From contig NZ_JARUBF010000001.1 of the NCBI RefSeq assembly GCF_029626025.1, positions 3,968,001 through 4,032,000 on the forward strand: a stretch of 64,000 nucleotides of DNA, written 5' to 3'. This document shows positions 4,923 through 48,211 of this stretch, piece by piece. Within the stretch, counting starts at the first letter, position 1. Each line of letters opens with the position of its first letter. This stretch comes from Solwaraspora sp. WMMD406. GTDB taxonomy: Bacteria; Actinomycetota; Actinomycetes; Mycobacteriales; Micromonosporaceae. The notes under the pieces are model-generated. The model did no database searches. It was not told the origin of the DNA and worked only from the letters and a program-made list of their open reading frames with translations. The position numbers were made by a program, and so were the translations under genes.

Positions 4923-5642
4923 GATCGGAGTTCCGCCTTTCTGGTGGGGAGGGTGGTCAGACGTGCGCCGATCACGTCGGGGCGAGTCGGTAAGCGCCGA
5001 GTTACCGCTCGTACAGACACGATCGTCGATAGAGCGCTCTCTGTCAATACCAAAGCGACAAACTGGACGAGGATGATCGTTGCTGCCCCGTGTCCCGGCG
5101 TCGTCGCGTCACCGGAGCGTGTCGGGGTGCGGCCTTCGCTCGGTCGGGTGAGCGTCAGCTCCGTCGGCGCGATCGTGATCCTGGCGGGCATCGCCTGCCG
5201 GCTCCGCATCTCACCAATGCCGTCGAATGGTCCGGGTTGTTGGTTGCGGCGATCGTACGCAATCGGGTTTCTGGTCTTGCTGGTTTCTGGTCTTGCTGAT
5301 TTCTGGTCTTGCTGATTTCTGGTCTTGCAGATTTCGCGAATCCGTGAGGTCGAAAAGATCATTTATCGAGAATTGGCAGCGCTTATCTACCCACTGGTGG
5401 TCGTCGCGCGCTGTCGGACGCAGTGCTGGATACCACACTCTCGGTCGCGATCACGCTATGGATGCGCCCAATCGCAGATGATAGACTTCTGTGAATCTGT
5501 TAATATTGCTTTCTATCTTCCTTTCGTGATGACAGGCGGGTGATCGTCTGGTGGCCGTCGAGGGTAATCGTCTTGAACCGTACTGATGGATGCCGTGCGA
5601 ATGACGTCGTCGAACCCCGGAGTGACTACCGGAGGGATTATC
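4923..5642. other. Divergent intergenic region with 16-bp tandem repeats
   Basis: This 720-bp gap separates the ThuA-family gene (minus) from the SARP regulator (plus). I see no convincing gene: open frames here lack ribosome sites and family features. It should hold both promoters. It is more AT-rich between about 5320 and 5530 than its surroundings. The only clear structure is four tandem 16-bp units at 5268-5331 (listed separately). Confidence 0.6.
5268..5331. repeat. Four tandem 16-bp units (tttctggtcttgctga)
   Basis: Units start at 5268, 5284, 5300 and 5316. They differ only in the last two or three bases of units 1 and 4. They lie in the divergent promoter region, about 310 bp before the SARP start and 350 bp before the ThuA-family start. 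They could be an iterated operator or simple slippage; nothing in the sequence decides between these. Confidence 0.8.
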
Positions 5643-19964: not shown

Positions 19965-20636
19965 ATGACTGCTGTCCAGACACCGAGGAGAGCCCACCTC
20001 CTGCGTGGAGCGAGGCGGCGTGTACTCGCCACACTCGCTGCTGGCACCTGCGGATTTCTGCTGGCCGTAGCGGCGGGGTCGCCTGCCCATGCGGGCGTGT
20101 ACGCCACGAACGACATCGACGCCGGCCACATCGACATCGTCAACATCGAATGCCCGTCCAGCCCGACGCTCGCGCTGACCACGAAGATCGGCTCGGGTAC
20201 GCCGATCAACCCGGTGGACATGCACAACTACGCGTTCGTCTACGACGATTCCAGCACTGCGGTGACCTGGATGCCCACCACCGGGACCGCCGGCTACTGG
20301 AGCATCGACATCGGCTCGGCCACGCAGTCGTCCGCTCCCTGGGTCGGATTCAACTTCGAGGGATCCTGCCCCGGCAGTGGCGCGGTGTGGATGAGCGCGG
20401 CTGGCGCGAACGCGGGTGACGTCCGCCTGTTCAACGCGGCCGGCTCGCAGGTGCTGGGTACCGGGTCGGGGACCTATCCGCTCGGCTCGGGGGCACACAC
20501 CCACTTCGAGTGGCGCTTCTACGCCCCGTCGAAGGCGACTACGCCGCAGATCTACAACCTGTACTTCGGATTCTCCGCCTCCGCGCCGCTGTCTACCCAG
20601 AACTGGCTGGCCGCGAAGTTCGTCATCATCCCCTGA
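19965..20636 (+). CDS. Secreted choice-of-anchor-M-like surface protein (single domain)
   Basis: This is 223 residues from ATG 19965; upstream in-frame ATGs at 19848 and 19854 lie in the operator and are unlikely. A long signal peptide (twin-Arg-rich RGARRRVLATLAAG then a hydrophobic core, cleavage near AHA-GV) is followed by one domain starting YATNDIDAGHIDIVNIEC and ending with SGAHTHFEWRFYAPS. The His-x-His-Phe-x-Trp pattern is the hallmark of the actinobacterial surface-anchored repeat. The paired histidines suggest metal binding. No LPXTG sorting signal is present, so the protein is probably released. It shares the Zur-like promoter region and precedes a multi-domain relative. Confidence 0.65.
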   Translation: MTAVQTPRRAHLLRGARRRVLATLAAGTCGFLLAVAAGSPAHAGVYATNDIDAGHIDIVNIECPSSPTLALTTKIGSGTPINPVDMHNYAFVYDDSSTAVTWMPTTGTAGYWSIDIGSATQSSAPWVGFNFEGSCPGSGAVWMSAAGANAGDVRLFNAAGSQVLGTGSGTYPLGSGAHTHFEWRFYAPSKATTPQIYNLYFGFSASAPLSTQNWLAAKFVIIP

Positions 20637-20646
20637 GCTGTGGCAC

Positions 20647-20682
20647 GAGCTGGGGCCGCCGCGATCGCGGCGACCCCAGCTC
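20647..20682 (+). terminator. Long hairpin between the two surface-protein genes
   Basis: GAGCTGGGG (20647-20655) pairs with CCCCAGCTC (20674-20682), and inside it CGCCGC pairs with GCGGCG around GATC. It starts ten bases past the stop of the first gene and so may cap the first transcript, leaving the second gene to read-through or its own promoter. Confidence 0.7.
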
Positions 20683-20718
20683 TGGGCGGACAGGGCCGTA
20701 GCGTTCGAAGGGAATCCC

Positions 20719-23700
20719 GTGGAGTCTGGTGGTCGGTGTCGGCGGACACCCAGGTCGAGGTACGCGGTGCTGGCGGCGGCTGTCGTCGTAGCCGCGCTGA
20801 TCTCTGCTCCGTCACCGGCTGTCGCGACCGCGTCGCCGGAGGTCTCCGCAGGTGAGTACGAGCTGACCTCGTATCCCGTCGAAGGCGGTCGGATGGTCAT
20901 CGGTGTCGCCGACCGGGGGGAGATCACCGAGGTAACGGGCGGCGTCCTCCGGTTCCGGCTCCCGGAGCAGGCGTCCTATCCGGTGCCTGACGCCGAGGCG
21001 TACGCCTGGCTCGGCGCGGCGGGGTCACCTGGCTACGCGACCGAGGGTTGGCTGACCGGCTCGCCAGCGGTCAAGCTGTCGCTGTCCACCCGGGGCGTCG
21101 CCGGCTACGACTACTACGACCACCTGCTCGCCGACGGCGGCCGCATCTCCGTCGCCTTCTCGGAGGTGACAGGTCCGGGCGACTTCGCCTTCTACCAGCT
21201 TCCCGACCTGCCGTTCCTGTCCCCGGAGCCGAACGCACCGGCCGGCGCGCGGTTCGGCACCGGTGTCCAGCGCGACGGCGCCCCTCAGGGGGCGACCCCG
21301 ATCGAGCTGGCGCCCCGTACGACGATCAACGACCGCTTTCGCTTCTCAACGGTCGGGATGTACTGCCTGACCGTGACGACGAGCGCGCCGCTGTCGGACG
21401 GCACCACCGCGAGTGCCACTGTGCGGCTGCGGGTCGCGGTGGGCGACGAGATCACCTCCGACGCCGGGTGCGGTGACAGCCCTGGCAACACCGACCCTGG
21501 TGATCCGACCGATCCGACCGATCCGACGGACCCAGGTGACCCGACCGATCCCGGTGATCCGGGGGTCGCCGACTGGGTGATCCGCGACGGCCACATCGAC
21601 GCCGTCGCGGCACGGATCGACCCGGTCGACGGTGTCGACAGGTTGTCGCTACAGGCCAGGTACGACGTACCCGGCGAGTTCCGGACCGAATGGATCGAGT
21701 ACGACGACCTGGTCGTGGTCGTTCCCGACTCCGTCAAACTGACGACTCCAGCCGCGTACGGCCGTGGTGACGACTGGTCCTTCATCGCCCCGCCGGCCAC
21801 GTCGTACTGGAACCTGCCGCTGGGTCAACAGGCCGGCGCGCCGTGGGCCGGACTCAGCACCGAATCACCGACCCTGGCCGGGCTGGGACAGGACCGGGTG
21901 CTGTGGCGGGTCGACGCCGTCACCGGGCCGGGCGACCAGACAGCCCCCGGCGACGTCGTCCTGTGGGAGGGCCATCCCCAGCGGGCCGGCGTCGGAATGG
22001 AGCGCATCGACCTGCCGGTGTTCAGCACCAAACTCGGCCTACCCGCGGCGCGCTGGGTTCCGTTGCACACCCACGCCCACTTCAACTGGTCGATCACCCG
22101 GCCCGGTGTCTACTGCATCGCGATGACCCTCGAAGCGCAGACCGCGCAGGGACAGCGGGTCTCGGCCGCACGGCAGCTCACCCTCGCCGTCGGCGACGAC
22201 GTCGACGCGTCCACCGTCACGCCGTGCGGGCGGACCCGGGACTACCCCGAGCGCGGCGCCGCCGCGCCGGCACCGGACCCGGTGTCGACGCCGTTCGTGC
22301 TCGGCCCTGCCGCGTCCTCCCTGGTCAGCACGATCGCTGACGGAGACCTGGCGACCCAGCTCGCGGCCCTCGACCCGACGCTGTCAGCGCCCGGCACCGT
22401 CCACGACCCGGAAAGCGTGATCTTCCACCGTCCGGCGGCGTTGTTCCGGGCCGGCACCGGGAACGTACCCGGCTTCGACACCGGCGTGTACGGCAACTCC
22501 ATGCAGGTCATTCGCTGGGACACCACCGGAATCCGGCCCGAGCAACTCCACGGTGACCTGCGATGGTCGCTGCACTCGGTGGCGGGTCCGGGAAACGTGG
22601 CGCTGTCGCACGGCCCCACCCAGACCGGGCCGTTCGTGTTCAACACCGCCACCGGCCAGAGCGAGCCCCACCGATTGTGGCCGGGCGCCGGTGGTGGTGA
22701 GACGAACAGCGCCGTCCTGTGGTCCTTCAGCCGGCCGGGGAAGTACTGCCTGACTCTGGAGTGGGCGGCAGACCTGCCCAGCGGCCACGAAGCGGTGGAT
22801 CGTCGGACGCTCACCTTCGTCGTGGACGGCCCACTCGACCCCACCGTCCGCGCCAATCCGGACGGCACCTACCCGGGTACGGCCTTCACCCACGACGCCG
22901 AGACGCTGACGAAGACCTGTGCCGACGGGGGACGACCTACCCGACCGGATGAGGTGCCCGTCCCCGGCGGTGAACCTGACCCGGTCGACGACCCGTGGAA
23001 CGTGCCGAACTGGTCCCGGACCGCATCCGGCGCGGTCATCCTCAACCGGGGGCACGTCGACGTCGCCTCGACCCTCGACGACGGCGGGCTCCGTACCCGG
23101 GTGAAGGACACCACCACCGAGGGGATGTCCCAGTCACCCGCCGGCAGCGCCGCGTACTGGCATGAGACGTCGGACGTGGTGCTGCAGTTGCTTCCGGAGT
23201 CCGCGACAACCGTGCCGGATGACGCGTACGGCTTCCTCGGGCCGGTCGGAAGCCGGATCTGGAACCTGCCGCAGACCGAGCAGCCAGGACTACTCTGGCC
23301 GGGCTGGTCGGCGGAGACGATCCGCCCGGTCGACCTCTTCGGAGGCGGTCTGGACTGGACTCTCACCGCGGCCCGTGGACCCGGCGACGTGTTCGTCCAT
23401 CAGACCGGCCCGCTCGGTGCTCCGGTGCACGTCTTCGACTCCGCCGACGGGTTGCCGGACACGACCCGGATCGGCGCCGGCTCGCACGTACACGCCAACT
23501 GGACGTTCACGGCACAGGGCAGCTACTGCCTCGCGTTCGCCCGTACCGGCAGCCGGCCCGACGGCACCGCGCTGTCGGACGCCTTCACCCTGGCGGTCGT
23601 CGTCGGTGAGGTCGACCCGACCGGAGCCGACCCGCAGGCCTGCGCTGACCTGCTACCCGGCACCGATCCGGACCCGGGGAACGAGCCGTGGAACGTGCCG

Positions 23701-24348
23701 AACTGGTCCCGGACCGCATCTGGTGCGGTCATCCTGAACCGTGGATACGTCGACATCGCCTCGGTCCTCGACGACGACGGCCTGCGCACCACGGTGCGGG
23801 ACCTGACCGTCGAAGGGCTCGCACACTCCCCGCAGAGCAACGCCGCGTACCCGCACGAGACCTCGGACGTGGTGCTCCAGCTGGTGCCGGCGGCCCGGAC
23901 GACGGTGCCGAGCGAGACGTACTCCTTCATCGGACCGGTGGGCAGCCACGCCTGGGGTCTGCCGCAGGCCGAACAGGCGGGCTTGCTCTGGCTGGGCTGG
24001 TCAGCGAAGACCATCGGCCCGGCCGACCTCGCCGGGCACGGGCTGACCTGGTCGTTGACCGCCGCCGACGGACCCGGCGACGTGTTCGTCCATCAGACCG
24101 GCCCGCTCGGTGCTCCGGTGCACGTCTTCGACTCCGCCGACGGGTTGCCGGACACGACCCGGATCGGCGCCGGCTCGCACGTACACGCCAACTGGACGTT
24201 CACGGCACAGGGCAGCTACTGCCTCGCGTTCGCCCGTACCGGCAGCCGGCCCGACGGCACCGCGCTGTCGGACGCCTTCACCCTGGCGGTTGTCGTCGGT
24301 GAGGTCGACCCGACCGGCGTCGACCCACGCGACTGCTACGGTTCGTAA
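20719..24348 (+). CDS. Secreted multi-domain choice-of-anchor-M surface protein
   Basis: GTG 20719 is preceded by GAAGGGA (20707-20713), giving 1209 residues; the longer open frame to 20416 overlaps the previous gene and is rejected. A signal peptide (SRYAVLAAAVVVAALIS, cleavage near AVA-TA) is followed by about five copies of the surface-anchored domain. Each ends in a metal-like motif such as HTHAHFNWSITRPGVYCIA or SHVHANWTFTAQGSYCLAF. A proline/aspartate linker (PTDPTDPTDPGDP) separates the first two copies. The last two copies begin with the words WNVPNWSRTASGAV and share almost identical DNA. There is no LPXTG or C-terminal membrane helix. The probable role is extracellular zinc capture or a zinc-controlled surface coat, inferred from the Zur-like box. 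Confidence 0.7.
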   Translation: MESGGRCRRTPRSRYAVLAAAVVVAALISAPSPAVATASPEVSAGEYELTSYPVEGGRMVIGVADRGEITEVTGGVLRFRLPEQASYPVPDAEAYAWLGAAGSPGYATEGWLTGSPAVKLSLSTRGVAGYDYYDHLLADGGRISVAFSEVTGPGDFAFYQLPDLPFLSPEPNAPAGARFGTGVQRDGAPQGATPIELAPRTTINDRFRFSTVGMYCLTVTTSAPLSDGTTASATVRLRVAVGDEITSDAGCGDSPGNTDPGDPTDPTDPTDPGDPTDPGDPGVADWVIRDGHIDAVAARIDPVDGVDRLSLQARYDVPGEFRTEWIEYDDLVVVVPDSVKLTTPAAYGRGDDWSFIAPPATSYWNLPLGQQAGAPWAGLSTESPTLAGLGQDRVLWRVDAVTGPGDQTAPGDVVLWEGHPQRAGVGMERIDLPVFSTKLGLPAARWVPLHTHAHFNWSITRPGVYCIAMTLEAQTAQGQRVSAARQLTLAVGDDVDASTVTPCGRTRDYPERGAAAPAPDPVSTPFVLGPAASSLVSTIADGDLATQLAALDPTLSAPGTVHDPESVIFHRPAALFRAGTGNVPGFDTGVYGNSMQVIRWDTTGIRPEQLHGDLRWSLHSVAGPGNVALSHGPTQTGPFVFNTATGQSEPHRLWPGAGGGETNSAVLWSFSRPGKYCLTLEWAADLPSGHEAVDRRTLTFVVDGPLDPTVRANPDGTYPGTAFTHDAETLTKTCADGGRPTRPDEVPVPGGEPDPVDDPWNVPNWSRTASGAVILNRGHVDVASTLDDGGLRTRVKDTTTEGMSQSPAGSAAYWHETSDVVLQLLPESATTVPDDAYGFLGPVGSRIWNLPQTEQPGLLWPGWSAETIRPVDLFGGGLDWTLTAARGPGDVFVHQTGPLGAPVHVFDSADGLPDTTRIGAGSHVHANWTFTAQGSYCLAFARTGSRPDGTALSDAFTLAVVVGEVDPTGADPQACADLLPGTDPDPGNEPWNVPNWSRTASGAVILNRGYVDIASVLDDDGLRTTVRDLTVEGLAHSPQSNAAYPHETSDVVLQLVPAARTTVPSETYSFIGPVGSHAWGLPQAEQAGLLWLGWSAKTIGPADLAGHGLTWSLTAADGPGDVFVHQTGPLGAPVHVFDSADGLPDTTRIGAGSHVHANWTFTAQGSYCLAFARTGSRPDGTALSDAFTLAVVVGEVDPTGVDPRDCYGS
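23377..24317 (+). repeat. Intragenic direct repeat, 248 bp, 693 bp apart
   Basis: Bases 23377-23624 and 24070-24317 differ at a single position that I can see (ggcggtcgtc versus ggcggttgtc). The sequence between the copies is much more divergent, so gene conversion of the C-terminal half of the domain is likelier than a simple recent duplication of the whole module. Confidence 0.9.
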
Positions 24349-38457: not shown

Positions 38458-40890
38458 GTGACTGCCCTGACCGAACCGCGCACGCACGCCGTACCGGGTG
38501 AGGAGCTGCTGCGCGTCCTCGCCGCGCCCGACGACGTCGAGCTGGCGCAGCTGGACGCGTGGTGGCGAGCCAACAACTACCTGACCGTGGGGCAGATCTA
38601 TCTGCGCGGCAACCCGCTGCTGCGCGAGCCGCTGACGCCTGAGCACATCAAGCCCCGGCTGCTCGGCCACTGGGGCACCAGCCCCGGCCTGTCGCTGATC
38701 TACGCCCACGTGTCCCGACTGATCCGGCACACCGGACAGCAGACGATCTACCTCACCGGTCCCGGTCACGGCGGCCCGGCGCTGGTCGCCGCCGGCTACC
38801 TGGAAGGAACCTACAGCGAGATCTACCCGGACGTCACCCAGGACGAGGCCGGCATGCTGCGGTTGTTCCGCCAGTTTTCCAGCCCGGGTGGCATCCCCAG
38901 CCACGTCTCGGTCACCACGCCCGGCTCCATCCATGAGGGCGGCGAACTCGGCTACGTCCTGGTGCACGCCTACGGCGCGGTGATGGACAACCCGGACCTG
39001 CTGGCGATCGCCGTGGTCGGTGACGGCGAAGCCGAGACCGGACCGCTGGAAGGCTCCTGGAAAGGCGTGTCGTTCATCAACCCGGCCCACGACGGCGCCG
39101 TACTGCCGATCCTGCACCTCAACGGCGCGAAGATCGCCGGCCCGACGGTGCTGGCCCGCAAGGAGCGCGGCGAGGTCCGTTCGCTGCTGGAAGGCCACGG
39201 GTACGAGGTCATCGAGGTCGAAGGTGACGACCTGCCCGGGATGCACTACCGGTTCGCCGCCGCCCTCGCCGACGCCTGGGGCAAGATCCGGGCGATCCAG
39301 TCGGCGGCCCGCTCCGGCGACTGGGACGGCTCCCGCCCCCGCTGGCCGCTGATCGTCCTGCGGTCGCCGAAGGGCTGGACCGGCCCCGAACAGGTCGACG
39401 GCATCACCGTCACCGGCACCTGGCGGTCGCACCAGGTGCCGCTGTCCGGTGTCCGCGACAACGCCGACCACCTGGCGATCCTGGAGACGTGGCTGCGTTC
39501 GTACCGGCCGGAGGAGCTGTTCGACGCGAACGGCGCACCGACCGCGACGGTGACCGGCGTCAACCCCGACGGTGGTCTGCGGATGAGCGCCAGCCCGCAC
39601 GCCAACGGCGGCCTGCTCACCCGCGACCTGGACATGCCCGACTTCCGGGAGTACGCCGTCGACGTGCCGCAGCCGGCCCGGCTGCGCGCCGAGTCGACCC
39701 GCAAACTCGGCGAACTGATGCGCGACATCTACACCCGCAACCCGGACCGGTTCCGGCTGTTCTGCCCGGACGAGACCAACAGCAACCGCCTCGGCGCCGT
39801 CTTCGAGGTCTCCGACCGGGGCTTCATGGAGCAGGTCTACCCGTCGGACACGGCGATCAGCCGCAACGGCCGGGTGATGGAGGTGCTCTCGGAGCACAAC
39901 TGCCACGGCTGGCTGGAGGGCTACAACCTGACCGGCCGGTACGGCATGTTCGCCACCTACGAGGCGTTCGCCATGGTCAGTGCTTCGCAGACGGTGCAGC
40001 ACGGCAAGTGGCTGCAGGAGGCGGCGCACCTGCCGTGGCGGGCCAAGGTGCCCAGCCTCAACATCCTGCTGACGTCGACCGCCTGGCGTAACGACCACAA
40101 CGGCTTCTCCCACCAGGGTCCCGGTCTGATCCAGGTGGTGCTCAACCAGCGGGGCACCGTCTCCCGGGTCTACCTGCCGCCGGACGCCAACTGCCTGCTG
40201 TCGGTCGCCGACCACTGCCTGCGGTCCAAGTCCTACGTCAACCTGGTCGTCATCGACAAGCAGCCGCAGCTGCAGTGGCTGACGATGGAGCAGGCCATCG
40301 AGCACTGCGCCAAGGGTGCCGACATCTGGGAGTGGGCCGGCACCGACGACGGCGCGACTGACCCGGACATCGTGCTCGCCTGCGCCGGCGACGTGGTCAC
40401 GATGGAAACGGTGGCCGCCGCGCAGATCCTGCGGGAACGCCTGCCCGGCCTGAAGGTACGGGTGGTCAACGTCGTCAACCTGATGACGCTGCCCCGGCCC
40501 AAGGACCACCCGCACGGGATGACCGAGACGATGTTCACCGAGCTGTTCACCGACTCGGTCGACGTGGTGTTCGCCTTCCACGGCTACCCGGGCGCGATCC
40601 ACCAGTTGGTGCACGGCCGTCCGGACGCCGACCGGTTCCGGGTGCGCGGCTTCATCGAGCAGGGCACCACGACCACCCCGTTCGACATGACGGTGCGCAA
40701 CCGGGCGTCGCGGTACCACCTGGTGATGGACGCGATCAACAACGCCCGGCGGCTGCCGCGCGGCGCCGCCGACCTCAAGGCGTGGTGCGAGGCCAAGCTC
40801 GCCGAGCACGAGGCGTACGTGGTGGAACACCTGGAGGACATGCCCGAGGTACGGGACTGGTCGCTGGGGGACTGGGCCAAGCAGGGCTGA
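38458..40890 (+). CDS. xfp: Xylulose-5-phosphate/fructose-6-phosphate phosphoketolase
   Basis: This is 810 residues from GTG 38458 with GGGAGGA (38443-38449) eight bases upstream; the length is normal for the family. The N-terminus has YLRGNPLLREPL and GHWGTSPGLS. Thiamine diphosphate binding is seen at GDGEAETGPLEGSWKG (about 188-203). Substrate-side histidines occur in GPGHGGPA and PGSIHEGGELGY, and the C-terminal part has FHGYPGAIHQL. It cleaves xylulose-5-phosphate (and/or fructose-6-phosphate) with phosphate to acetyl phosphate and a C3/C4 sugar phosphate. No acetate kinase is adjacent. Confidence 0.95.
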   Translation: MTALTEPRTHAVPGEELLRVLAAPDDVELAQLDAWWRANNYLTVGQIYLRGNPLLREPLTPEHIKPRLLGHWGTSPGLSLIYAHVSRLIRHTGQQTIYLTGPGHGGPALVAAGYLEGTYSEIYPDVTQDEAGMLRLFRQFSSPGGIPSHVSVTTPGSIHEGGELGYVLVHAYGAVMDNPDLLAIAVVGDGEAETGPLEGSWKGVSFINPAHDGAVLPILHLNGAKIAGPTVLARKERGEVRSLLEGHGYEVIEVEGDDLPGMHYRFAAALADAWGKIRAIQSAARSGDWDGSRPRWPLIVLRSPKGWTGPEQVDGITVTGTWRSHQVPLSGVRDNADHLAILETWLRSYRPEELFDANGAPTATVTGVNPDGGLRMSASPHANGGLLTRDLDMPDFREYAVDVPQPARLRAESTRKLGELMRDIYTRNPDRFRLFCPDETNSNRLGAVFEVSDRGFMEQVYPSDTAISRNGRVMEVLSEHNCHGWLEGYNLTGRYGMFATYEAFAMVSASQTVQHGKWLQEAAHLPWRAKVPSLNILLTSTAWRNDHNGFSHQGPGLIQVVLNQRGTVSRVYLPPDANCLLSVADHCLRSKSYVNLVVIDKQPQLQWLTMEQAIEHCAKGADIWEWAGTDDGATDPDIVLACAGDVVTMETVAAAQILRERLPGLKVRVVNVVNLMTLPRPKDHPHGMTETMFTELFTDSVDVVFAFHGYPGAIHQLVHGRPDADRFRVRGFIEQGTTTTPFDMTVRNRASRYHLVMDAINNARRLPRGAADLKAWCEAKLAEHEAYVVEHLEDMPEVRDWSLGDWAKQG

Positions 40891-40896
40891 CCGGTC

Positions 40897-40956
40897 GGTC
40901 GCGGCGGGGCCGCCCCGGGGGATGGGTGACATCGCCCCGGCGGTCCCGCCGCGACC
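40897..40956 (+). terminator. Large hairpin terminator after xfp
   Basis: Bases 40897-40914 (GGTCGCGGCGGGGCCGCC) and 40939-40956 (GGCGGTCCCGCCGCGACC) pair over 18 positions with one mismatch around a 24-nt loop, seven bases after the xfp stop. Confidence 0.8.
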
Positions 40957-41024
40957 GTTCCGTCGGCAGGCCGACAGTCCGCCAGGCGGAGGCCCCTGCT
41001 GGCCAGCGACTACCATCGGCGGGC

Positions 41025-41402
41025 ATGGCGACGCACACCGCAGCGGGTACGGACGCGGCCGGCCCGATCCCCGCCGCGCTGACCACGGAGGCGGTCCTGC
41101 TCCTGCGGGACGTGTATCGATGGCAGCACGCGGATGCCCAGTGGGCGGAGGTCGACGACCTGCTGGCCACGTTGGACCGCGCGTTCGTCGTCGGCGACGC
41201 CGCCGGGTTCCGGCAGGCGCTGGTGGATGTCGAGTTCGTCCAGGACCGTGTCTCGCCGGTCACCGGTCGGCCCCGGACCGCGCCGCCACCTCGGACCAGG
41301 GATCGGCTCAACCAGCTGGTGCACGCGTTGGCGCCGCCCGGCACCCACACCGACACCGCCGGCGGGACCGAGGGACGACATGACCGCCCCGGAGATCGTT
41401 GA
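41025..41402 (+). CDS. CATRA-associated small protein
   Basis: This is 125 residues from ATG 41025. The core reads LLLRDVYRWQHADAQWAEVD, then LLATLDRAFVVGDAAGFRQA and a tail RTRDRLNQLVHAL. As I recall the family, this matches the small protein encoded just before CATRA (caspase/TPR-associated) genes in actinobacterial conflict systems: a helix with Arg/Trp pairs, a loop, a short strand and a C-terminal RLN-LVH helix. Its stop lies 23 bases inside the next gene, so the two are co-translated. The function is unknown; it is presumed to be an adaptor or inhibitor. Confidence 0.7.
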   Translation: MATHTAAGTDAAGPIPAALTTEAVLLLRDVYRWQHADAQWAEVDDLLATLDRAFVVGDAAGFRQALVDVEFVQDRVSPVTGRPRTAPPPRTRDRLNQLVHALAPPGTHTDTAGGTEGRHDRPGDR

Positions 41403-43062
41403 CCAGCAGCTGGTGATTCACCAGTATTTCCCGCTCGACGGGCCGGCTGCCGCCGCCGCTGTCGACGAGGTCGAACTGATGTGGGCGTACTGCCGGCAGG
41501 TGTTCGGCATGACCGACCCGATCGCCGGCACCGGTCTGTCCGACCACCTACCGACGGGTTGGGCGGATGTGTCCGTGCCGCCGGGGGACGAGTCGGCGCT
41601 CGCCGCGCAGCAGCACCCGGTCGGCGGGTTCCAGTCGCTGCTGCGCCGCCATCATGACGTGGTGAACCTGTCGGTGGCGCTCGCACCGGGCATGGCGTTC
41701 GCACCGGGCATGGCGTCTGACGCCGACACCGATGCCGACACCGGTGCCGGCGCTGAAGCCGGTACCGGCACCGGCGAGGGTGGCTCGACCTGGCTGACTC
41801 TGGAACGACGCTGGCGTGACGTGCTTCGACTCACCGCCGCCGAGGCCGGGTCCGGCACCGGTACGGCGTCCGATGCCACCACCTCCGCCTTTGGCCAGGA
41901 CCGGCTGTTCGTCGCCCTTCTCGGATCTCCGGAGCCGACCTCGACCGCCCGGCTCGGCCGGCTCCTGGCGCGGGCCCTGCCGGTCGTCGAGACCGCTGAC
42001 TCCTGGTGGGAGCAGGGCGTCGAGATCGATCCGGCATTCGCGGTCTGGGAGCTGACTCCTCGGCGGGACTCGCGGGCGTACCGGCATCTGGTCGTCGCGG
42101 CCGGTTCCCGCCACGACGCGGACCTGAGCGACTGGCTGTGGTCCGACGGAGGCGTGGCGATCCCGCCGCTGGCCCGCTACCTGCTGCACACCGCCAAGCT
42201 GCGCTACCAGTTGAGGGTCTGGGAGCGCGATCGATCGGCGAGTATGACGGGCACGTCCGGTACGGCTGCGGCCCGACGAGCCGTGATGTTGCGGATGCGC
42301 CGCACGGTGGAGATCGCCCGGTCGAACATGGCCGCTGTCGTTGACGGCGCACCGACCACCGGCGCCGGCCCGTTCGCTGACGACCGTGCGATGGCGGACT
42401 GGTTCACCCGGCAGCTCGGCGACGACGCCGCCTACCAGGAGCTGCAGGTCCACGTCGACGACAGTCCGGCACGGTCGCCGGCCGACGACCCGCCGCCGCG
42501 CCCGGCGGACCATGACGCCAGCCGGGGCGTCTTCGTGGTACATGGCCGCGATGGAGTGGTCCGGGATCGGATGTTCGACTTCCTGCGTTCCCTGGACCTA
42601 CGCCCGCTGGAGTGGGAGTCCCTCGTCGCGGCCTCCGGCAGCGCCGCGCCGTACCTCGCAGACGTGGTCGGACGTGCGGTACGGCTGGCCCAGGCAGCCG
42701 TGGTCCTGCTGACTCCCGACGACGAGGTGAGTCTGCATCCGAGCTTGCGGACACCGGCGGACTCCGACGCGGAGTTCCACCGGGGCATGCAGGCCCGACC
42801 CAACGTGCTGCTGGAGCTGGGGATGGCGCTGGCGACGTACCCGACGCGTACCGTGGTCATCCAGGTCGGTGAGCTGCGACCGGTGGCCGACCTCGGTGGT
42901 CTCAACTTCATCCGGCTCGACGACGGACCCGAATGCCGCCGCAAGATCGCCGTACGGCTCAAGGAAGCCGGTTGCCCGGTCGACGACCGGGGCTCGGACT
43001 GGCTGGCACCGGGGCGGTTCGCCGACCTCGCCGCCTACCGACGCCGGCCCGGATCGCGCTGA
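41380..43062 (+). CDS. CATRA-domain protein fused to CAP12/Pycsar-like TIR domain
   Basis: This is 560 residues from ATG 41380 (GAGGGA nearby upstream). Residues 1-330 match the CATRA N-terminal region: LVIHQYFPLDGP, VDEVELMWAYCRQVFGMTDP, LLRRHHDVVNLSVALAPG and WLTLERRWRDVL. Residues about 380-555 are a TIR-like nucleotide-binding domain of the type found in Pycsar/CBASS effectors: RGVFVVHGRDGVVRDR, AAVVLLTPDDEVS, the catalytic-type glutamate in NVLLELG (E479) and GLNFIRLDDG. Such TIRs cleave NAD when triggered. CATRA proteins usually sit with caspase-like proteases and here a TPR-CHAT gene is 1.7 kb away. A repetitive linker (SDADTDADTGAGAEAGTG) lies near residue 115. Confidence 0.75.
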   Translation: MTAPEIVDQQLVIHQYFPLDGPAAAAAVDEVELMWAYCRQVFGMTDPIAGTGLSDHLPTGWADVSVPPGDESALAAQQHPVGGFQSLLRRHHDVVNLSVALAPGMAFAPGMASDADTDADTGAGAEAGTGTGEGGSTWLTLERRWRDVLRLTAAEAGSGTGTASDATTSAFGQDRLFVALLGSPEPTSTARLGRLLARALPVVETADSWWEQGVEIDPAFAVWELTPRRDSRAYRHLVVAAGSRHDADLSDWLWSDGGVAIPPLARYLLHTAKLRYQLRVWERDRSASMTGTSGTAAARRAVMLRMRRTVEIARSNMAAVVDGAPTTGAGPFADDRAMADWFTRQLGDDAAYQELQVHVDDSPARSPADDPPPRPADHDASRGVFVVHGRDGVVRDRMFDFLRSLDLRPLEWESLVAASGSAAPYLADVVGRAVRLAQAAVVLLTPDDEVSLHPSLRTPADSDAEFHRGMQARPNVLLELGMALATYPTRTVVIQVGELRPVADLGGLNFIRLDDGPECRRKIAVRLKEAGCPVDDRGSDWLAPGRFADLAAYRRRPGSR

Positions 43063-43112
43063 CGACGCCGGCCCGGATCGCGCTGACGACGCCGGCCCGG
43101 ATCGCGCTGACC
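43041..43112 (+). repeat. Three tandem 24-bp units across the CATRA-TIR stop codon
   Basis: Units start at 43041, 43065 and 43089 and are identical except for the last base of unit 3. Unit 1 carries the gene's last codons and its TGA; the other two copies are noncoding. A slippage duplication is likely. The units are GC-rich and each contains a small ggcccggatc motif, so they could also form a transcript-end structure. Confidence 0.85.
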
Positions 43113-43168
43113 ACTGCGAGAACCGAGCCGACGTCAAGACCATCTGACGGCGGCCGATCTGCCACAGG

Positions 43169-44479
43169 TCACAACGCTCGTACCGCCGCCGTCACCGCGA
43201 GCAGGTCGATCTGTCCGACGTCGCCGGGCCGTAGCACGATCCGCAACTCAGGGGTGACGAACTCGCGACGGGAGTGCGCGACGAACGACCGCGCGATCGT
43301 GGTCAGCAGGTCCCCTCGGCTCATCGAGTCGATCCGGGCCAGCCCGGTGCCGATCAGCGGCATGGCCACCACACCCAGTTGACCGTGGCGGCCCACCGCC
43401 GACCAGAGTCGATCGAGGCTGCGCCGCAGGTCGTCGGGGGTCGAGCGGGCGATCAGATCGTTGCCCATCTGGCTGTACGCGATGGCGAAGATCCGCCGCC
43501 CGTCCTGGTTGAGCACGGCGACCGTGCCGATCGGGTAGCGGGTGAGTTTGCCCCGCCGCTTCGTCGCCCGGGTCTCACCGCCCGCCTTGGGCGCGTGCTG
43601 CAGCGCGGTCCGCAGCTCCCGGTCGAGCAACCCCCGGTCGCCGCCGTACCGGCGGTGGAGCAGCTGGCCCTGCACACTGCCGCTGTTGATCACGACATCC
43701 TGGCTGGTGGCGGTGTCGAAGGTGTCGGTGAAGCCGACCACCAGGTGGGCGTCGTCCTGCGCGAACAGGTCACCGGTGAGCACGGTGAGCCGTACCCGTG
43801 GCGAGCCGACGTCGTGCCGCAGGATGCTGCGGGGCTGCTGGTCGGCCACCTCGCGCAGCGCGCCGACGATCGCGGCCAACTCGGCGTCGTCGGGATGTCG
43901 GGCCGTGAGCGTCCGACCCTCGTCGAGCGCCTTGTCGATCATCCCGATATCCCGGTACGCCAGCAGCAGGGCCCGGTTGGCGGCCGCCCGCATCGCGTGC
44001 AGCCGCCGGGCGGTCTGCTCGGCGTACGGATGCCCGGCGACGTCGAGCAGGGGCCGGCCACGCCACAGCCGTCGCGCGGTCTCCAGCATCTCGATCGTCT
44101 GCGGTGCGTCGGCGAGCTGTGCCCGGCTGACCAGGTCTTGGAACCGCCAGATGTCGACCTGGTCGGGGTCGAGCAGAAGCTGGTACGCCGAGGTGCGGCC
44201 ACGATCGGTACGCAGCACCTCGGAATTGTCGCCGGGCCGGTCCGGATCGAGGATCCGACGCAGATCCATGATCCGCTTCTGGACGCTAATCCGGTCCTCC
44301 CGACGGACCAGGCTGTCGCGGGAGAGCCAGACGTCGCGGAACAACTCGTCCACAGTGACGAGTTCTCCCTCGGCGAGGACCAGCCGGGTCAGCACGGCGG
44401 CTGCGGTCGGGGTCATCCGGCTCACCACGCCGTCACGCTCCACCGTGGCGCGACCGAAAAGCTGCACCCGCAGCGCCAC
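43169..44479 (-). CDS. SARP-BTAD regulator fused to a macro-like (DUF6430-type) domain
   Basis: GTG 44479 is chosen because GGGAGG (44494-44489) precedes it; TTG 44500 would add seven residues. The protein has 436 residues. The first 100 are an OmpR-like SARP domain (ALRVQLFGRATVERDGVV). Residues about 100-225 are BTAD (DIWRFQDLVSRAQLADAP; RALLLAYRDIGMIDKALDEG). Residues about 235-436 resemble the macro-like domain of Thoeris-type and DUF6430 proteins: VLTGDLFAQDDAHLVVGFTD, TSQDVVINSGSVQGQLLHR and GVVAMPLIGTGLARI. Macro domains bind ADP-ribose or related nucleotides. A NAD-derived signal from the adjacent TIR protein could therefore be its ligand, and its probable site lies in the divergent promoter. 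Confidence 0.75.
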   Translation of the reverse strand: MALRVQLFGRATVERDGVVSRMTPTAAAVLTRLVLAEGELVTVDELFRDVWLSRDSLVRREDRISVQKRIMDLRRILDPDRPGDNSEVLRTDRGRTSAYQLLLDPDQVDIWRFQDLVSRAQLADAPQTIEMLETARRLWRGRPLLDVAGHPYAEQTARRLHAMRAAANRALLLAYRDIGMIDKALDEGRTLTARHPDDAELAAIVGALREVADQQPRSILRHDVGSPRVRLTVLTGDLFAQDDAHLVVGFTDTFDTATSQDVVINSGSVQGQLLHRRYGGDRGLLDRELRTALQHAPKAGGETRATKRRGKLTRYPIGTVAVLNQDGRRIFAIAYSQMGNDLIARSTPDDLRRSLDRLWSAVGRHGQLGVVAMPLIGTGLARIDSMSRGDLLTTIARSFVAHSRREFVTPELRIVLRPGDVGQIDLLAVTAAVRAL

Positions 44480-44564
44480 CAGCCGACCCCTCCCGGACAA
44501 CGCACCCTCCGCGTTGTCCGAGCCTACCGACGGCTACCGAGCGCCAGCAATCCGGCAGCAACGC

Positions 44565-44600
44565 GGAAGCGGTCCGGAAGCGGACAGTCACTGGAAGCGG
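44565..44600. promoter_or_regulatory. Direct repeats with SARP-type 11-bp spacing
   Basis: GGAAGCGG occurs at 44565-44572, 44576-44583 and 44593-44600. The first two are 11 bp apart, one helical turn, which is the arrangement of SARP binding sites; the third is 17 bp further. The site lies between the SARP-macro gene (about 86 bp away) and the TPR-CHAT gene (about 158 bp away) and could control both. Confidence 0.55.
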
Positions 44601-44757
44601 ACAAGTCACGCGGGCCGGGCTCCCTCCCCGAGGGTTCGCGGCGGACGGGTCCGCCGTTCGTACGGCACGACGCTCCGGCCGGCGTGCTCCGGCCAACGTG
44701 CTGCGGGTCCGTCAGATCCGACGGACCGAGTGATCAGACGGCCGCGAAAGACCCAGA

Positions 44758-47700
44758 ATGACCACCGACCGCACGGCCGCCCCTGACCGGCACACCGCCA
44801 CCGGTCACCGCCTCGACACCACCGGAAAGGCCCGCGACATGCTCGACGCCCACCACATCGCGCAACGCTGGGACCAGTGGTGCGAGCTGCCCGACGAGGA
44901 CCCCGAAGCCGACGGGATCCTCGCCGAACTCGTCGGACACGCCGACGCCTGGGCCACGATGCCACCGGGTGACGACCGCGACATCGTCGCCTACTGCGTC
45001 GGGCTCGCACTGGTCGAGACCGGCGGCGACGACAACCTGCGGGCCGCCGTCGCCCCGCTCGCCTCGGTGGTCTGGCTACCCGAAGCCGACCCCGAGTCCC
45101 TGGTGCCCGCCGCGATGCGGCTGGTGTACGCGATCGTCGTCACCGGGGAACCGACCGGCGGCCCGGACCTGCGGGCCACCGTGCACCGCGCCGCCGACCT
45201 GGTCACGCCCGCCGACCGCTGGCAGGTCTGGCTGACCGCCACCACGATGTGCCAGCAGCAGCACAGCGTCGACGCCCGCCGCGAGCTGCGCGACGCCGCG
45301 CTGGAGTTCAGCACCACCGGGCTCGCCGAATCACCACCGGACGAGGACGTCCAGATCGAACTGCAGTTCCGCCGGCTGACGACGGCGCTGTCCGCCGCCG
45401 ATCACGCCGAACGCGTCCTGGCCCGGCCGGCGATCCTCACCGAGGCGTACCAGCTGTGGCGGACCACGGCACCCGGCCCGGCCCGCGACCAACTCGCTGC
45501 CGTTCTCGCGATGGCCGCGCACGTCGTCGCCGACTCCGGATGGCGTCCCATCCCACCGCCGGTGCTGCGCGACCTGCACGACGCCGGCGAGCGGGCACCC
45601 GGGCTGCCGCCCTCGGTACGGCTGTACCTGACCGGCACCCGTGGCCTGCTCGAAGCCATGGGCACCATCCCGGCCGGTCCGTCGCCGTACGCCGCACCGC
45701 AGGACCTGCGGCGCGCCCTGACCGAAACCGACGCGACCGCGTCCCACGAGGCGGCGGCCGAGGCAGCCGGGGCCGAGACAGCCGGGTCCGACACGGCGAG
45801 GGTCGACGCGGCCGGAACCGAGGGAGCCGAAACCGACGCGGCCGACGCGGCCGGTGCCCTCGACGCCAGCACCGCGAGCATGGCCGCCCTCGGCGAGCAG
45901 GCGATCCCGGCACTGCTGATGGCCAAGGCGCATCAGACCGGCGACCTCGGCGCGGTCGAGTCCGCCCTGGGAACGCTGGCCACCGGCGGTGCCGACCCCG
46001 GGGTCCGCCGACTCGCCGAACTGCTCCGCTCGGTCGATCCGGACGTCGCGGACGCCCGGCACGTCCACGCGCTGATCGACGCGATCGACACGCTCGCCAC
46101 CAGCACCGACGACCCCCGGACCCGGGAGCTGTTCGGCATGGCGCTGCCGGCGGTGACCGCCCTGCGTACCGGGGACGTGCCGGCACCGGCCAGCGGCGGC
46201 AGCGGACCGCTGCCGCCGCCGCTGCGGCTGATGACCCAGCTCATGCCGGCGGTCGCCGCGCAGCGTGACAGCGAAACCGACGAACGGACCCTGCGTCGGC
46301 TGATCGCCGACACCGGTCAGGTCGCGGCCGCGCCGGCCGCCGGCACGCAGATCCACGGGTACGCCGCCGAGCTGCTCGCCGAGCTGTGGCGCGCACTGGC
46401 CGACGCGACCCACCGACGCGACGACCTGGACCAGGCGGTACAGGCCGCGCGGACAGCCGCCGAAGCGGCTGGCGGACCGGCGAACATCCACTGGCGGGCG
46501 GCGACCCGCCGACTCGCCGCGCTGCTGCGGACCCGCGACGGCGGCCGGGGCGCGGATCGGCGGCAGGCACGAGAATTGCACCTGGCCAGCCTGCGCGGCG
46601 ACGCCTGGCAAGTGATGCTGCAGTCCGGCAGCGCGCACGCCGTACGGGCAGCTGGCTCGGCGGCCGCCGCCGCGACCCGGACCGCCGCGCTGTGCGTCCG
46701 GGACCGCGCCTTCGATGACGCCGTACGGGCGTTGGACGCCGGCCGGGGCCTGGTGGTGTACGCCGCGACCGCCGGCCGGTCGGTGCCGGATCAGCTACGC
46801 GCCGCCGGCCGAGCCGACCTGGCCGACGAGTGGCAGGCCGCCGGGGGCCCGGCCGCCGGACTCGCCGCCGGTGGCCCGGCTACCGAAACCGCAACGGCCG
46901 TCGGCGGCGATGTACCGGCCGGCGACGGCAACGGCTCCGGCGACGACGGACTGTCGTTGGACGACCTGCGACACCGGGTGCTGGACGTACTCTCCGCCCC
47001 GGCCGACACCCGGCAGCGGCTGCTGGACCCGCCGAGACCGGCGGAGATCCAGGCCACCCTCGACCACGCCGACCTGGACGCGATCGCCTACCTGCTGCCC
47101 GGTGCGCCGACCACCGGCGGCGTGATCCTGCTGGTCGGCGTCGGCCGGCAGACCGAGGTGGTGCGGTGCCCCGGCCTGATCGAGCATCCGCTGATCGCCG
47201 CCTACCGGCAGGCGGCGCACCACCGGCAGCGACCCGACCGCGCGGCGGACGCGATCAGACAATGGCGGACCGCGCTCGGCGCACTCTGCGACTGGGCCGG
47301 GCCGGCCGGCATGCGGCCACTCGTCCAGCACCTCGCCGGCTGGGACCTGGGCCGGCCGGCGCGGGTCGCGCTCGCCCCGATGGGACCCCTGGGCGTGGTG
47401 CCCTGGCACGCCGCCCGCGACCCGGCCACCGGCCGGTACGCCGTACAGGATCTGCAGGTCTCCTACCTGCCGTCGGCGCGGCTGCTGGCCAGCGTCACCC
47501 ATCCGGACGGTGCCGATCCGGCCACCTCTGCCACCTCTGCCGACCCGGCCACCGGGCCCACCGGTGAGGTGCTGATCGTCGGCGACCCGGACGGTTCACT
47601 GTCGGCGGCCGCAGACGAAGCCGCCCTGATCCGCGCCACCTTCTACCCGTACGGCCGGCACCTGGCCGCCGACGCCACCACCGAACGACTACGGCGGTGG

Positions 47701-48201
47701 CTGACCGCCGACACCGGCCGATCCGTGCTGCATCTGAGCTGCCACGGCTTCGCCCACACCGACCAGCCGTGGCGGTCGCGGGTCGTCCTCGCCGACGGAC
47801 AGGAGCTGACGGCCGGTGACCTGCTGGACATCGGTCGCCGGCAACGGCAGCTGGTCGACCTGGTGCTGTTGGCGGCCTGCGAGACCGGGGTGCCCGGCGA
47901 CGACCACGACGAGGTGTTCAGCCTCGCCACCGCGTTCCTCGCCGCCGGTGCGCGATCGGTGATCGCCACGATGTGGCGGGTACCTGACCGGCCGACCGCG
48001 ATGCTGACCTTCATGGTGCACCACTTCCTGCGTGAGGAAGGCCTGACTCCGGCCGCCGCGTTACGCGCCGCCCAGCTCTGGATGCTCGACCCGCACCGGC
48101 TGCCACCGGCCACGATGCCCGCCCCGCTGCGGGACCGGGTGGGCAGCGCCACCCTGGACGACCCGGCGAGCTGGGCGAGCTTCACCCACGCCGGCCGCTA
48201 G
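44758..48201 (+). CDS. Large TPR-CHAT caspase-like protease
   Basis: This is 1147 residues from ATG 44758 (ATG 44839 is an in-frame alternative, beginning MLDAHHIAQRWDQW). Most of the protein is TPR-like helices, interrupted by a degenerate Ala/Glu/Thr-rich stretch (about residues 330-370) and a glycine-rich linker (about 700-740). Residues about 850-1147 are the CHAT protease domain: LAPMGPLGVVPWHAA, catalytic histidine in LHLSCHGF (H996), cysteine in LLAACETG (C1041), and SVIATMWRVPD. It is the likely caspase-like effector of the CATRA module. It is divergent from the SARP-macro regulator and is followed closely by an unrelated haem oxygenase gene. Confidence 0.85.
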   Translation: MTTDRTAAPDRHTATGHRLDTTGKARDMLDAHHIAQRWDQWCELPDEDPEADGILAELVGHADAWATMPPGDDRDIVAYCVGLALVETGGDDNLRAAVAPLASVVWLPEADPESLVPAAMRLVYAIVVTGEPTGGPDLRATVHRAADLVTPADRWQVWLTATTMCQQQHSVDARRELRDAALEFSTTGLAESPPDEDVQIELQFRRLTTALSAADHAERVLARPAILTEAYQLWRTTAPGPARDQLAAVLAMAAHVVADSGWRPIPPPVLRDLHDAGERAPGLPPSVRLYLTGTRGLLEAMGTIPAGPSPYAAPQDLRRALTETDATASHEAAAEAAGAETAGSDTARVDAAGTEGAETDAADAAGALDASTASMAALGEQAIPALLMAKAHQTGDLGAVESALGTLATGGADPGVRRLAELLRSVDPDVADARHVHALIDAIDTLATSTDDPRTRELFGMALPAVTALRTGDVPAPASGGSGPLPPPLRLMTQLMPAVAAQRDSETDERTLRRLIADTGQVAAAPAAGTQIHGYAAELLAELWRALADATHRRDDLDQAVQAARTAAEAAGGPANIHWRAATRRLAALLRTRDGGRGADRRQARELHLASLRGDAWQVMLQSGSAHAVRAAGSAAAAATRTAALCVRDRAFDDAVRALDAGRGLVVYAATAGRSVPDQLRAAGRADLADEWQAAGGPAAGLAAGGPATETATAVGGDVPAGDGNGSGDDGLSLDDLRHRVLDVLSAPADTRQRLLDPPRPAEIQATLDHADLDAIAYLLPGAPTTGGVILLVGVGRQTEVVRCPGLIEHPLIAAYRQAAHHRQRPDRAADAIRQWRTALGALCDWAGPAGMRPLVQHLAGWDLGRPARVALAPMGPLGVVPWHAARDPATGRYAVQDLQVSYLPSARLLASVTHPDGADPATSATSADPATGPTGEVLIVGDPDGSLSAAADEAALIRATFYPYGRHLAADATTERLRRWLTADTGRSVLHLSCHGFAHTDQPWRSRVVLADGQELTAGDLLDIGRRQRQLVDLVLLAACETGVPGDDHDEVFSLATAFLAAGARSVIATMWRVPDRPTAMLTFMVHHFLREEGLTPAAALRAAQLWMLDPHRLPPATMPAPLRDRVGSATLDDPASWASFTHAGR

Positions 48202-48211
48202 GCTGACGCAC

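Follow-up and report, generated by a model that had tools for sequence, protein, structure and literature searches.

One question raised by a four-gene locus of Solwaraspora sp. WMMD406 is how a nucleotide signal made by a TIR domain might be linked to transcriptional regulation. The locus lies in a window of 64,000 nucleotides, the whole stretch analysed here (contig NZ_JARUBF010000001.1, positions 3,968,001 to 4,032,000), and profile searches of the translations confirm within window positions 41025-48201 the four adjacent genes that an earlier note on this DNA had reported, encoding a CATASP, a CATRA-TIR, a SARP-macro protein and a CHAT protease. All Pfam matches of the four proteins lie above the curated cut-offs, with the sole exception of the winged helix of the SARP-macro protein. 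The features are:

40894..48200, no strand assigned: inserted cassette with all four genes, its ends located to ~25 bp (left) and ~60 bp (right)
41025..41402, plus strand: CATASP, the CATRA-associated small protein, 125 aa (PF20271 3.4e-20, 72.1 bits against a cut-off of 29)
41380..43062, plus strand: CATRA-TIR, 560 aa, with CATRA-N, CATRA-C and a C-terminal CAP12/PCTIR-type TIR (PF20269 3.6e-52, PF20270 1.4e-25, PF10137 6.5e-23)
43169..44500, minus strand: SARP-macro, a winged helix and BTAD (SARP) fused to a ThsA-type macro (PF03704 3.2e-12, PF20016 4.5e-56)
44553..44581, minus strand: three direct repeats with an 11-bp period, GCTTCCG-N4-GCTTCCG-N4-GCTGCCG, a putative SARP operator in the intergenic region from which SARP-macro and CHAT diverge
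44758..48201, plus strand: CHAT-domain protease, 1147 aa, with His996 and Cys1041 (PF12770 2.4e-47)

The CATASP gene overlaps that of CATRA-TIR by 23 bp, CATRA-TIR is convergent with SARP-macro, and SARP-macro is separated from the divergent CHAT gene by 257 bp. The orientation of SARP-macro, opposite to that of its three neighbours, goes unmentioned in the earlier note. The cassette is bordered by a phosphoketolase gene ending at 40890 and an ABM monooxygenase gene starting at 48212. In 6/6 congeners the four-gene cassette is missing at the same site and the alignments break at window 40890-40914, restarting at 48152-48209; five of the sites are empty, and G060 has other cargo at this position. 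By this comparison of genomes, the four genes are a one-piece insertion.

The identity of the small protein and of the TIR fusion with its intact NVLLELG glutamate, both proposed in the earlier note, is upheld by the profile matches and by the presence of the catalytic-type Glu479 in this motif. The CATRA-TIR is the sole PF10137 match of the window genome, and among 14 genomes checked 13 have one such match and one (G024) has four. The glutamate is retained in 15/15 CATRA-TIRs near a SARP-macro gene, as against 4/10 of those with no macro within 8 kb. The window TIR also matches PADLOC PDC-S35 and none of the ThsB models of Pfam and PADLOC at E<=1; searching the PDB by sequence gave no useful match for CATRA-TIR, and Foldseek gave nothing at E<=0.001, the best hit being TIR-STING 9lmr (2.8e-3).

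The proposed fusion of a DNA-binding SARP with a macro domain is likewise borne out, by PF03704, PF20016 and fold matches. The predicted model (pLDDT 90.4) matches 8v6r (2.3e-14), 8r66 (1.6e-12), AfsR 8k60 (4.5e-7) and EmbR 2ff4 (2.2e-6), such that the macro half resembles ThsA structures containing ADPR or a signalling molecule, while the N-terminal half resembles AfsR and EmbR; the PADLOC model ThsA1 aligns at 1.5e-67 over profile positions 52-278 of 281. Although the winged helix scores below threshold with Trans_reg_C (25.5 bits, cut-off 26.2), the predicted fold supports it, and in this model an OmpR-type wHTH is followed by the BTAD, as the SARP family requires. The start codon is uncertain, between ~44467 and 44500. 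Of nine EcThsA pocket residues mapped, D83, D100, S175 and G218 are kept in the window protein, and N114 is changed to Gln, S217 to Thr, T220 to Ala, H259 to Arg and K262 to Asp. By alignment, the ADPR pocket is thus partly kept, and because five positions are altered the ligand may differ from that of EcThsA. A crude hydropathy scan flagged a TM stretch in 6/83 SARP-macro frames and left the window protein unflagged. Eleven plasmid records match part of the SARP-macro gene, none over 80% of it.

The SARP-macro family is actinobacterial. In a quick tree of 75 rows without bootstrap, for which one row in three was sampled from the second-macro group and from its TM-macros, and which omitted L163, L164, L165 and L170 (some of them also outside the pocket, TIR-Glu and CHAT-residue alignments), the SARP-macros group together with SH-aLRT 93, one PNP-macro (L064) lying inside. 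A PF10137-like TIR is encoded within 8 kb of SARP-macro in 63 of the 67 loci with flanks of at least 4 kb, and in 71/81 when loci with shorter flanks are included; the loci being related, such counts are not independent events. These neighbours were found with our own TIR profile, and PF10137 was confirmed for the window and 4/4 other loci scanned; L129 and L133 were dropped as duplicates of L054 and L070. G124 has a SARP-macro gene without a TIR neighbour, its sole PF10137 match being a CATRA-TIR elsewhere in the genome. Two types of neighbourhood stand out. CATRA or CATASP accompanies SARP-macro in 16 loci, of which 15 have a CATRA-TIR, 12 a CHAT gene and 11 all four gene types, so that the co-occurrence in other genomes, without which the earlier note would have given up its reading, was found. 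In 10/16 of these loci CATRA-TIR lies downstream of SARP-macro in the same direction, and in L121 and L127 SARP, macro and CATASP form a single frame. In 44 of the 67 full-flank loci, SARP-macro is paired instead with a lone TIR beside a second macro, which carries a TM stretch in 45/54 cases by the same crude scan.

This second type bears on whether a dedicated messenger is needed at all. The TIR could kill by NAD depletion, with the SARP-macro protein merely sensing the resulting ADPR and regulating the cassette; a bacterial TIR protein defends by NAD depletion (in sections of PMC12162218), the macro of EcThsA binds plain ADPR (in sections of PMC11204291), and CATRA-fused domains are said to sit in effector position (in part of PMC8195603). 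The pairing with a lone TIR and a second macro argues against this, since in those loci, where the second macro mostly has a TM stretch, a Thoeris-like signal offers the simpler explanation, and we regard the depletion reading as unlikely.

A putative operator lies in the SARP-macro promoter itself. Known SARP operators, as described in portions of PMC5930380 and PMC10936776, consist of heptamer repeats with 4-bp spacers or an 11-bp period, and the repeats of the window and of the CATRA-group promoters that carry them have this classic geometry, marking a putative binding site. In the window the array is immediately preceded on its own strand by an extra half-site, GCTTCCA, and the pair GCTTCCG-N4-GCTTCCG, found at 44564-44581, has no second exact copy in the 7.16-Mb genome. 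With <=2 mismatches the pair is found in 11/16 CATRA-group SARP-macro promoters (0.0 in first-order Markov resamples, 0 on the opposite strand), being absent from L095, L104, L138, L150 and L159; in G145 an exact pair, not counted in the 11/16, lies inside the SARP-macro stretch slightly past the chosen start. An exact 8-mer repeat at lag 11 occurs in 7/16 of these promoters, with 0 at lags 8-10 and 12-16 and 0.0 in resamples of the same kind. Across nine genomes 9 of 12 exact pairs are at SARP-macro promoters, as are 9 of 14 matches to an extended pattern in 10 genomes (reversed control, 1), a pattern absent from the window SARP-macro promoter. In L059, L092 and L100 the distance between the 3-prime repeat and a TAnnnT is 14 bp, as against 8 bp described for SARPs.

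The distribution of the heptamers has its limits. The pair is absent from 9/11 unclassified SARP-macro promoters, and a GCTTCCG operator was rejected for the second-macro loci (0/54 on the gene's strand and 1/54 on the other when <=2 mismatches are allowed), whose promoters share a conserved block and give small excesses of repeats at lags 10, 12 and 23, in 4, 4 and 5 of 54 (resamples 0.4, 0.9 and 0.2). Exact pairs are held by 34/200 genomes of the family; seven such loci elsewhere (L208-L213, L215) have no match to CATASP, CATRA, TIR, SARP, macro or CHAT and lack the RiPP end motif, and three more exact sites, one in G204 and two in G200, likewise showed no link to the system. The heptamers form tandem triples in L208-L210 and a ten-copy run in G039, and L214, chosen for a weak precursor match, has only a SARP-profile match (5.7e-8).

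Such evidence weighs on two further explanations. A chance neighbourhood of independent genes in a defence hotspot, with which the different cargo of G060 would agree, is exceedingly improbable given the TIR pairing, the one-piece insertion, the single SARP-macro-CATASP frame and the genome-unique exact operator. Alternatively, SARP-macro could be a repressor or a housekeeping regulator of NAD status, its link with the TIR reflecting no more than control over the dose of a toxic gene. For other conflict operons, one-component repressors of Nudix or WYL type that respond to ADPr-type ligands are predicted (in excerpts of PMC9503650), but the SARPs treated in the relevant portions of PMC5930380 and PMC10936776 are activators, and this explanation appears quite improbable.

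We consider it probable that the TIR makes an ADP-ribose-type signal which the SARP-macro protein reads in order to activate transcription, the locus being a CATRA-type conflict cassette that includes a branch into transcription. The TIR would be switched on by a trigger, probably one in which CHAT and CATASP act on CATRA, and would cleave NAD to an ADP-ribose-type nucleotide; its binding by the ThsA-type macro, probably favouring dimers or oligomers, would allow the SARP half to bind the 11-bp-spaced GCTTCCG repeats and activate its own promoter, and the whole may serve against phage. This activation could feed back on the TIR where CATRA-TIR follows SARP-macro on the same strand; no such feedback is seen in the window, where CATRA-TIR is convergent and no repeat-like sequence lies upstream of CATASP (best candidate, 5/14 mismatches). 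A TIR signal read by a promoter-controlling macro-SARP protein, as the earlier note envisaged, gains support from the ThsA macro fold, the partial ADPR pocket, the TIR neighbours and the operator.

The same note made the CHAT protein a TPR-CHAT protease that kills. The CHAT domain, the length of 1147 aa, and the His and Cys stand, whereas the TPR is not confirmed: no TPR model matches at E<=1, and the long N-terminal region has no Pfam match. SARP-macro loci contain 14 CHAT frames, and both residues align in 12 of them; L095 accounts for the remaining two, which are fragments. A CHAT protease that kills as the last step, its synthesis induced by SARP-macro after the signal has formed, would agree with these residues and with the divergent position of the gene across the repeats. 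CHAT is missing, however, from 4/16 CATRA-group stretches (the genome of L092 has one ~16 kb off) and lies within 8 kb of only 1/54 second-macro loci, for which reason its place in the conserved core was rejected. Moreover, parts of PMC8195603 describe CATRA systems as caspase-dependent, with the variable domain in effector position, which fits a protease acting as activator. The killer role is therefore somewhat unlikely, and on this analogy CHAT is more likely an activator.

Further targets of SARP-macro in the window genome may be the divergent CHAT gene and a cyclophane RiPP operon located far from the cassette. A related four-repeat array lies upstream of this radical-SAM operon, and RiPP homologues adjoin SARP-macro in three Streptomyces loci (L094, L121, L127). 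As the window array faces SARP-macro, control of CHAT or the RiPP genes on the other side is a guess. More tentatively, a TIR-made, NAD-derived messenger might let SARP-macro amplify both its own system and the distant RiPP, with a peptide product and protease synthesis as output instead of immediate NAD loss or membrane damage, and in Streptomyces a membrane ThsA and SARP-macro might read the same messenger in parallel.

Were a DNA-binding reader confirmed, TIR signalling could reprogramme transcription, an immune signal could switch genes on without killing directly, and the operator would allow targets to be predicted from sequence. The open-licence literature yielded no paper on a SARP-macro protein and none that deals with SARPs in defence against phage; Burroughs and Aravind 2020, outside that scope, may mention such partners, and reportedly describes CATRA ternary systems as CATRA-N/C with a variable domain, CATASP and a CHAT caspase-like protease. 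The cassette shares all these elements, the variable domain here being TIR, and differs in adding a SARP-macro transcription factor, not mentioned in the relevant part of PMC8195603. With CBASS CAP12 and Pycsar PCTIR effectors it shares the TIR family PF10137, but CBASS or Pycsar identity was rejected, no nucleotide cyclase being found in nine scanned proteins (four cassette and five flanking), which also contain no STING or SAVED domain. Csx29 of type III-E CRISPR, which is linked to a sigma-factor pathway, shares the CHAT domain by a weak match (chain 8d9f, 6.9e-8; NF041237 53.8 bits against a cut-off of 300) and differs in that no CRISPR gene is among the proteins scanned. Thoeris with a TM-macro ThsA has in common the ThsA macro fold (PF20016) with a TIR and the residues D83, D100, S175 and G218; however, in the window the fusion partner of the sensor is a DNA-binding SARP half and no TM stretch was flagged, and its TIR is a PF10137 domain fused to CATRA, not of ThsB type. 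Thoeris readers act on NAD or membranes in the covered portions of the surveyed literature. Finally, the wHTH-BTAD fold and the heptamer repeats with 4-bp spacers, bound here only putatively, are those of AfsR, PimR and EmbR; large SARPs carry additional domains (portions of PMC5930380 and PMC10936776), and that of the window protein is a ThsA-type macro, so that one cassette would unite CATRA systems, Thoeris-type sensing and SARP control.

The cassette and its SARP-macro gene, which encodes a SARP (winged helix and BTAD) fused to a ThsA-type macro domain, are placed as follows:

41025-48201: four genes, encoding CATASP, CATRA-TIR, SARP-macro and CHAT
within 41025-48201, minus strand: SARP-macro gene

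The earlier note had claimed these four gene types here, and all are present, the Pfam matches that name them being above cut-off and the sole part slightly below threshold being the SARP-macro winged helix (25.5 bits against 26.2). PADLOC labels the macro part ThsA1 (1.5e-67), in an alignment that starts only at profile position 52. As modelled by AlphaFold2 from 43 sequences (mean pLDDT 90.4, pTM 0.55), SARP-macro matches EcThsA with ADPR (8v6r, 2.3e-14), a ThsA macro domain bound to its signalling molecule (8r66, 1.6e-12), AfsR within a transcription complex (8k60, 4.5e-7) and EmbR (2ff4, 2.2e-6); since the pTM is low, the mutual placement of the two halves is not fixed by the model. For the CATRA-TIR model (pLDDT 80.3) a PDB comparison found nothing at E<=0.001. 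Elsewhere in the window lie:

5577-7697: SARP resembling AfsR, carrying NB-ARC
16316-18007: TPR protein, matching CHAT weakly (5.1e-10)
20416-24348: 1310-aa frame of gene-like composition, with no Pfam match at 0.001

Each of the seven genomes of the genus that were searched has the phosphoketolase gene that lies upstream of the cassette here. In six congeners the matches to the window end at 40890-40914 and restart at 48152-48209; five of these sites are empty, with no more than about 60 bp between the flanking matches, and G060 has about 4.9 kb of other genes instead of the cassette. The ion-channel gene farther downstream is present in five of the six and was not found in G079, whose site is nevertheless empty up to the ABM gene. 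PF20016 and CATASP gave zero matches genome-wide in all six congeners. The inserted piece, about 40894-48200, is the four cassette genes and nothing else. The G060 cargo (L220 360-4520), at the site of the window's cassette, includes a 785-aa protein without a Pfam match and a regulator that combines NUDIX with an NrtR-type winged helix, a fold known to sense ADP-ribose.

Among 200 family genomes, PF20016 occurs in 19 and CATASP in 33 (30 above cut-off). One scan of genome contigs with a SARP-macro alignment yielded 145 relatives, with 79 loci kept; adding loci from further genomes brings the total to 83 SARP-macro frames, or 81 less two duplicates; the loci are related, mostly from Streptomyces and close kin, and their counts are not independent events. 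With a search profile grown from the window's own TIR, a TIR was found within 8 kb of SARP-macro at 63 of the 67 loci having at least 4 kb on each side, 14 times as CATRA-TIR, and at 8 of the 14 loci with shorter flanks; the four full-flank loci without a TIR at that distance are L054, L069, L093 and L166. A second macro gene is near SARP-macro at 44 and CHAT at 12 of these 67. Pfam assigns PF10137 to all four stand-alone TIRs scanned (L067, L098, L103, L105), and this family is rare, with one match each in 13 of 14 SARP-macro genomes and four in G024. The one match in G124, the genome of L069, is a CATRA-TIR far from SARP-macro, and Acrocarpospora corrugata has two SARP-macros, L093 without and L095 with a TIR. 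The pairing recurs in three architectures: with CATRA-TIR, with a lone TIR beside a second macro, and with a lone TIR by itself. A widespread set, mostly in Streptomyces, consists of TIR, divergent second macro and SARP-macro (e.g. L103 7685-11437), and a TM stretch is flagged in 45 of 54 second macros of such sets. ThsA-type macro domains are also fused to a PNP-family phosphorylase (L064 9681-11288) and to an AAA/STAND-like NTPase (L062 9674-13330).

Sixteen SARP-macro loci with CATRA or CATASP form the CATRA group, of which 15 have CATRA-TIR and 12 CHAT; all four gene types occur together at 11, co-occurrence in other genomes being a check that the earlier note had put forward. SARP, macro and CATASP share a single open frame in L121 (9722-11713) and L127 (5298-7181), a link between the regulator and the CATRA machinery. 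All 15 CATRA-TIRs within 8 kb of SARP-macro keep the catalytic Glu; where no macro lies within 8 kb (n=10), Glu is kept in four, falls in an alignment gap in one and is Arg, Thr or Cys in five, and near another macro (n=2) it is kept in one. Loci without SARP-macro in which Arg, Thr or Cys replaces this Glu are L060, L063, L068, L073, L079 and L091. Both His and Cys are aligned in 12 of the 14 CHAT frames of the group, the other two being L095 fragments.

The EcThsA pocket residues, as named in PMC11204291, were mapped on 81 SARP-macros. The D83 position is Asp in all 81; at D100, 77 have Asp and 4 have Glu; S175 is Ser in 79 and G218 is Gly in 80. N114 corresponds to Gln in 80, S217 to Ser in 54, Ala in 24 and Thr in 3 including the window, T220 to Ala or Ser in all, and H259 to Arg in 63; at K262, 45 have Asp and 24 have Glu. 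Since the pocket residues are much alike in the 69 remaining macros, the actinobacterial readers, both membrane and DNA-binding, look, from residue alignment, tuned to similar ligands, not necessarily that of EcThsA.

PMC10936776 and PMC5930380 describe SARP operators as heptamers in direct repeat, separated by 4-bp spacers, with 11 or 22 bp from one repeat to another and 8 bp between the final repeat and the -10. Of the 16 CATRA-group promoters, 7 carry an exact 8-mer repeat at lag 11 (0.0 in first-order Markov resamples) and none has one at lags 8-10 or 12-16. The putative operator GCTTCCG-N4-GCTTCCG, with up to two mismatches and within 300 bp upstream, is found at 11 of 16 CATRA-group loci (resamples 0.0, opposite strand 0), at 2 of 11 unclassified loci and at none of 54 second-macro loci. 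Promoters of the second-macro set have a conserved block, without this pair. The exact pair occurs once in the 7.16-Mb window genome, at window 44564-44581; nine genomes hold 12, of which 9 are at SARP-macro promoters, and G201 and G205 have none. Pairs with at most one mismatch number 86 in these nine genomes against 82 for a reversed control, and therefore single sites of this kind carry no meaning. An extended pattern, in which the first heptamer is followed by AA and by further repeats at distances of 23 and 34 bp, is matched 14 times across 10 genomes, and 9 of these matches are at SARP-macro promoters; its reversed control is matched once. Since the SARP-macro promoters, together with the RiPP site discussed below, served to derive the pattern, only its rarity elsewhere is informative. 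The SARP-macro promoter of the window lacks it. G037 has a second extended site, which precedes a small EcsC-like gene (L230 10416-10967; PF12787 3.1e-6, below cut-off) adjoining CATRA-TIR; extra sites about 16 kb (G200) and about 1.4 kb (G201) from SARP-macro genes lack an evident target, and another, in G202, has no explanation. Ten GCTTCCG heptamers run with an 11-bp period at G039:C56:280431-280536.

The window genome's one extended site, with zero mismatches, is at 3644931-3644970 and overlaps a four-heptamer run at 3644965-3645004 with one mismatch per pair; this array, first spotted in the one-mismatch list as two matches 22 bp apart, begins about 56 bp upstream of a RiPP operon outside the window (L171 4932-8876):

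gene 1: precursor, 65 aa, ending RGSCQSGYSTWGD (GYSTWGD ending)
gene 2: frame without a family match
gene 3: GrrM/OscB-type cyclophane radical SAM enzyme (TIGR04261, 2.7e-100)
gene 4: protein with a weak asparagine-synthase match

In L094, L121 and L127 a homologous precursor gene and SARP-macro point in opposite directions, with the repeats between them; the radical SAM gene was confirmed in L127. A four-precursor profile, run on 200 genomes of the family, 394 of the class and 295 of Streptomyces, in sets that overlap, gave among the best candidates scored E<1e-30 only in G000, G202 (L094) and G772 (L121), which are source genomes of the profile and no independent test of co-occurrence, and three weak matches (5e-4 to 6e-4). 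This shows that, among the best candidates in the genome sets searched, the precursor is rare and was not encountered apart from SARP-macro. The array is oriented away from the RiPP genes, toward a gene for an RpiR-type regulator at a distance of about 166 bp, and the RiPP operon as a target of SARP-macro is therefore a proposal.

We propose that, on a trigger, CHAT and CATASP would act on CATRA-TIR, that NAD would be cleaved to an ADP-ribose-type product, that the macro domain of SARP-macro would bind this product and that a SARP dimer would sit on the repeats, leading to SARP-macro transcription. CATRA-TIR lies downstream of SARP-macro in the same direction at 10 of 16 CATRA-group loci (L066, L094, L095, L097, L100, L104, L121, L127, L152, L159), of which L095, L104 and L159 are without repeats. 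In the window the two genes are convergent, and in the 299 bp upstream of CATASP the best pair has 5 mismatches; here the targets would be CHAT and perhaps the RiPP operon. The cassette may act against phages.

In the literature searched we found no report of a TIR joined with a DNA-binding ThsA-type reader. The individual parts of the system are already known, and conflict-system transcription factors reading nucleotide or ADPr-type signals, with CARF, WYL and Nudix sensors, are described or predicted in PMC9503650.
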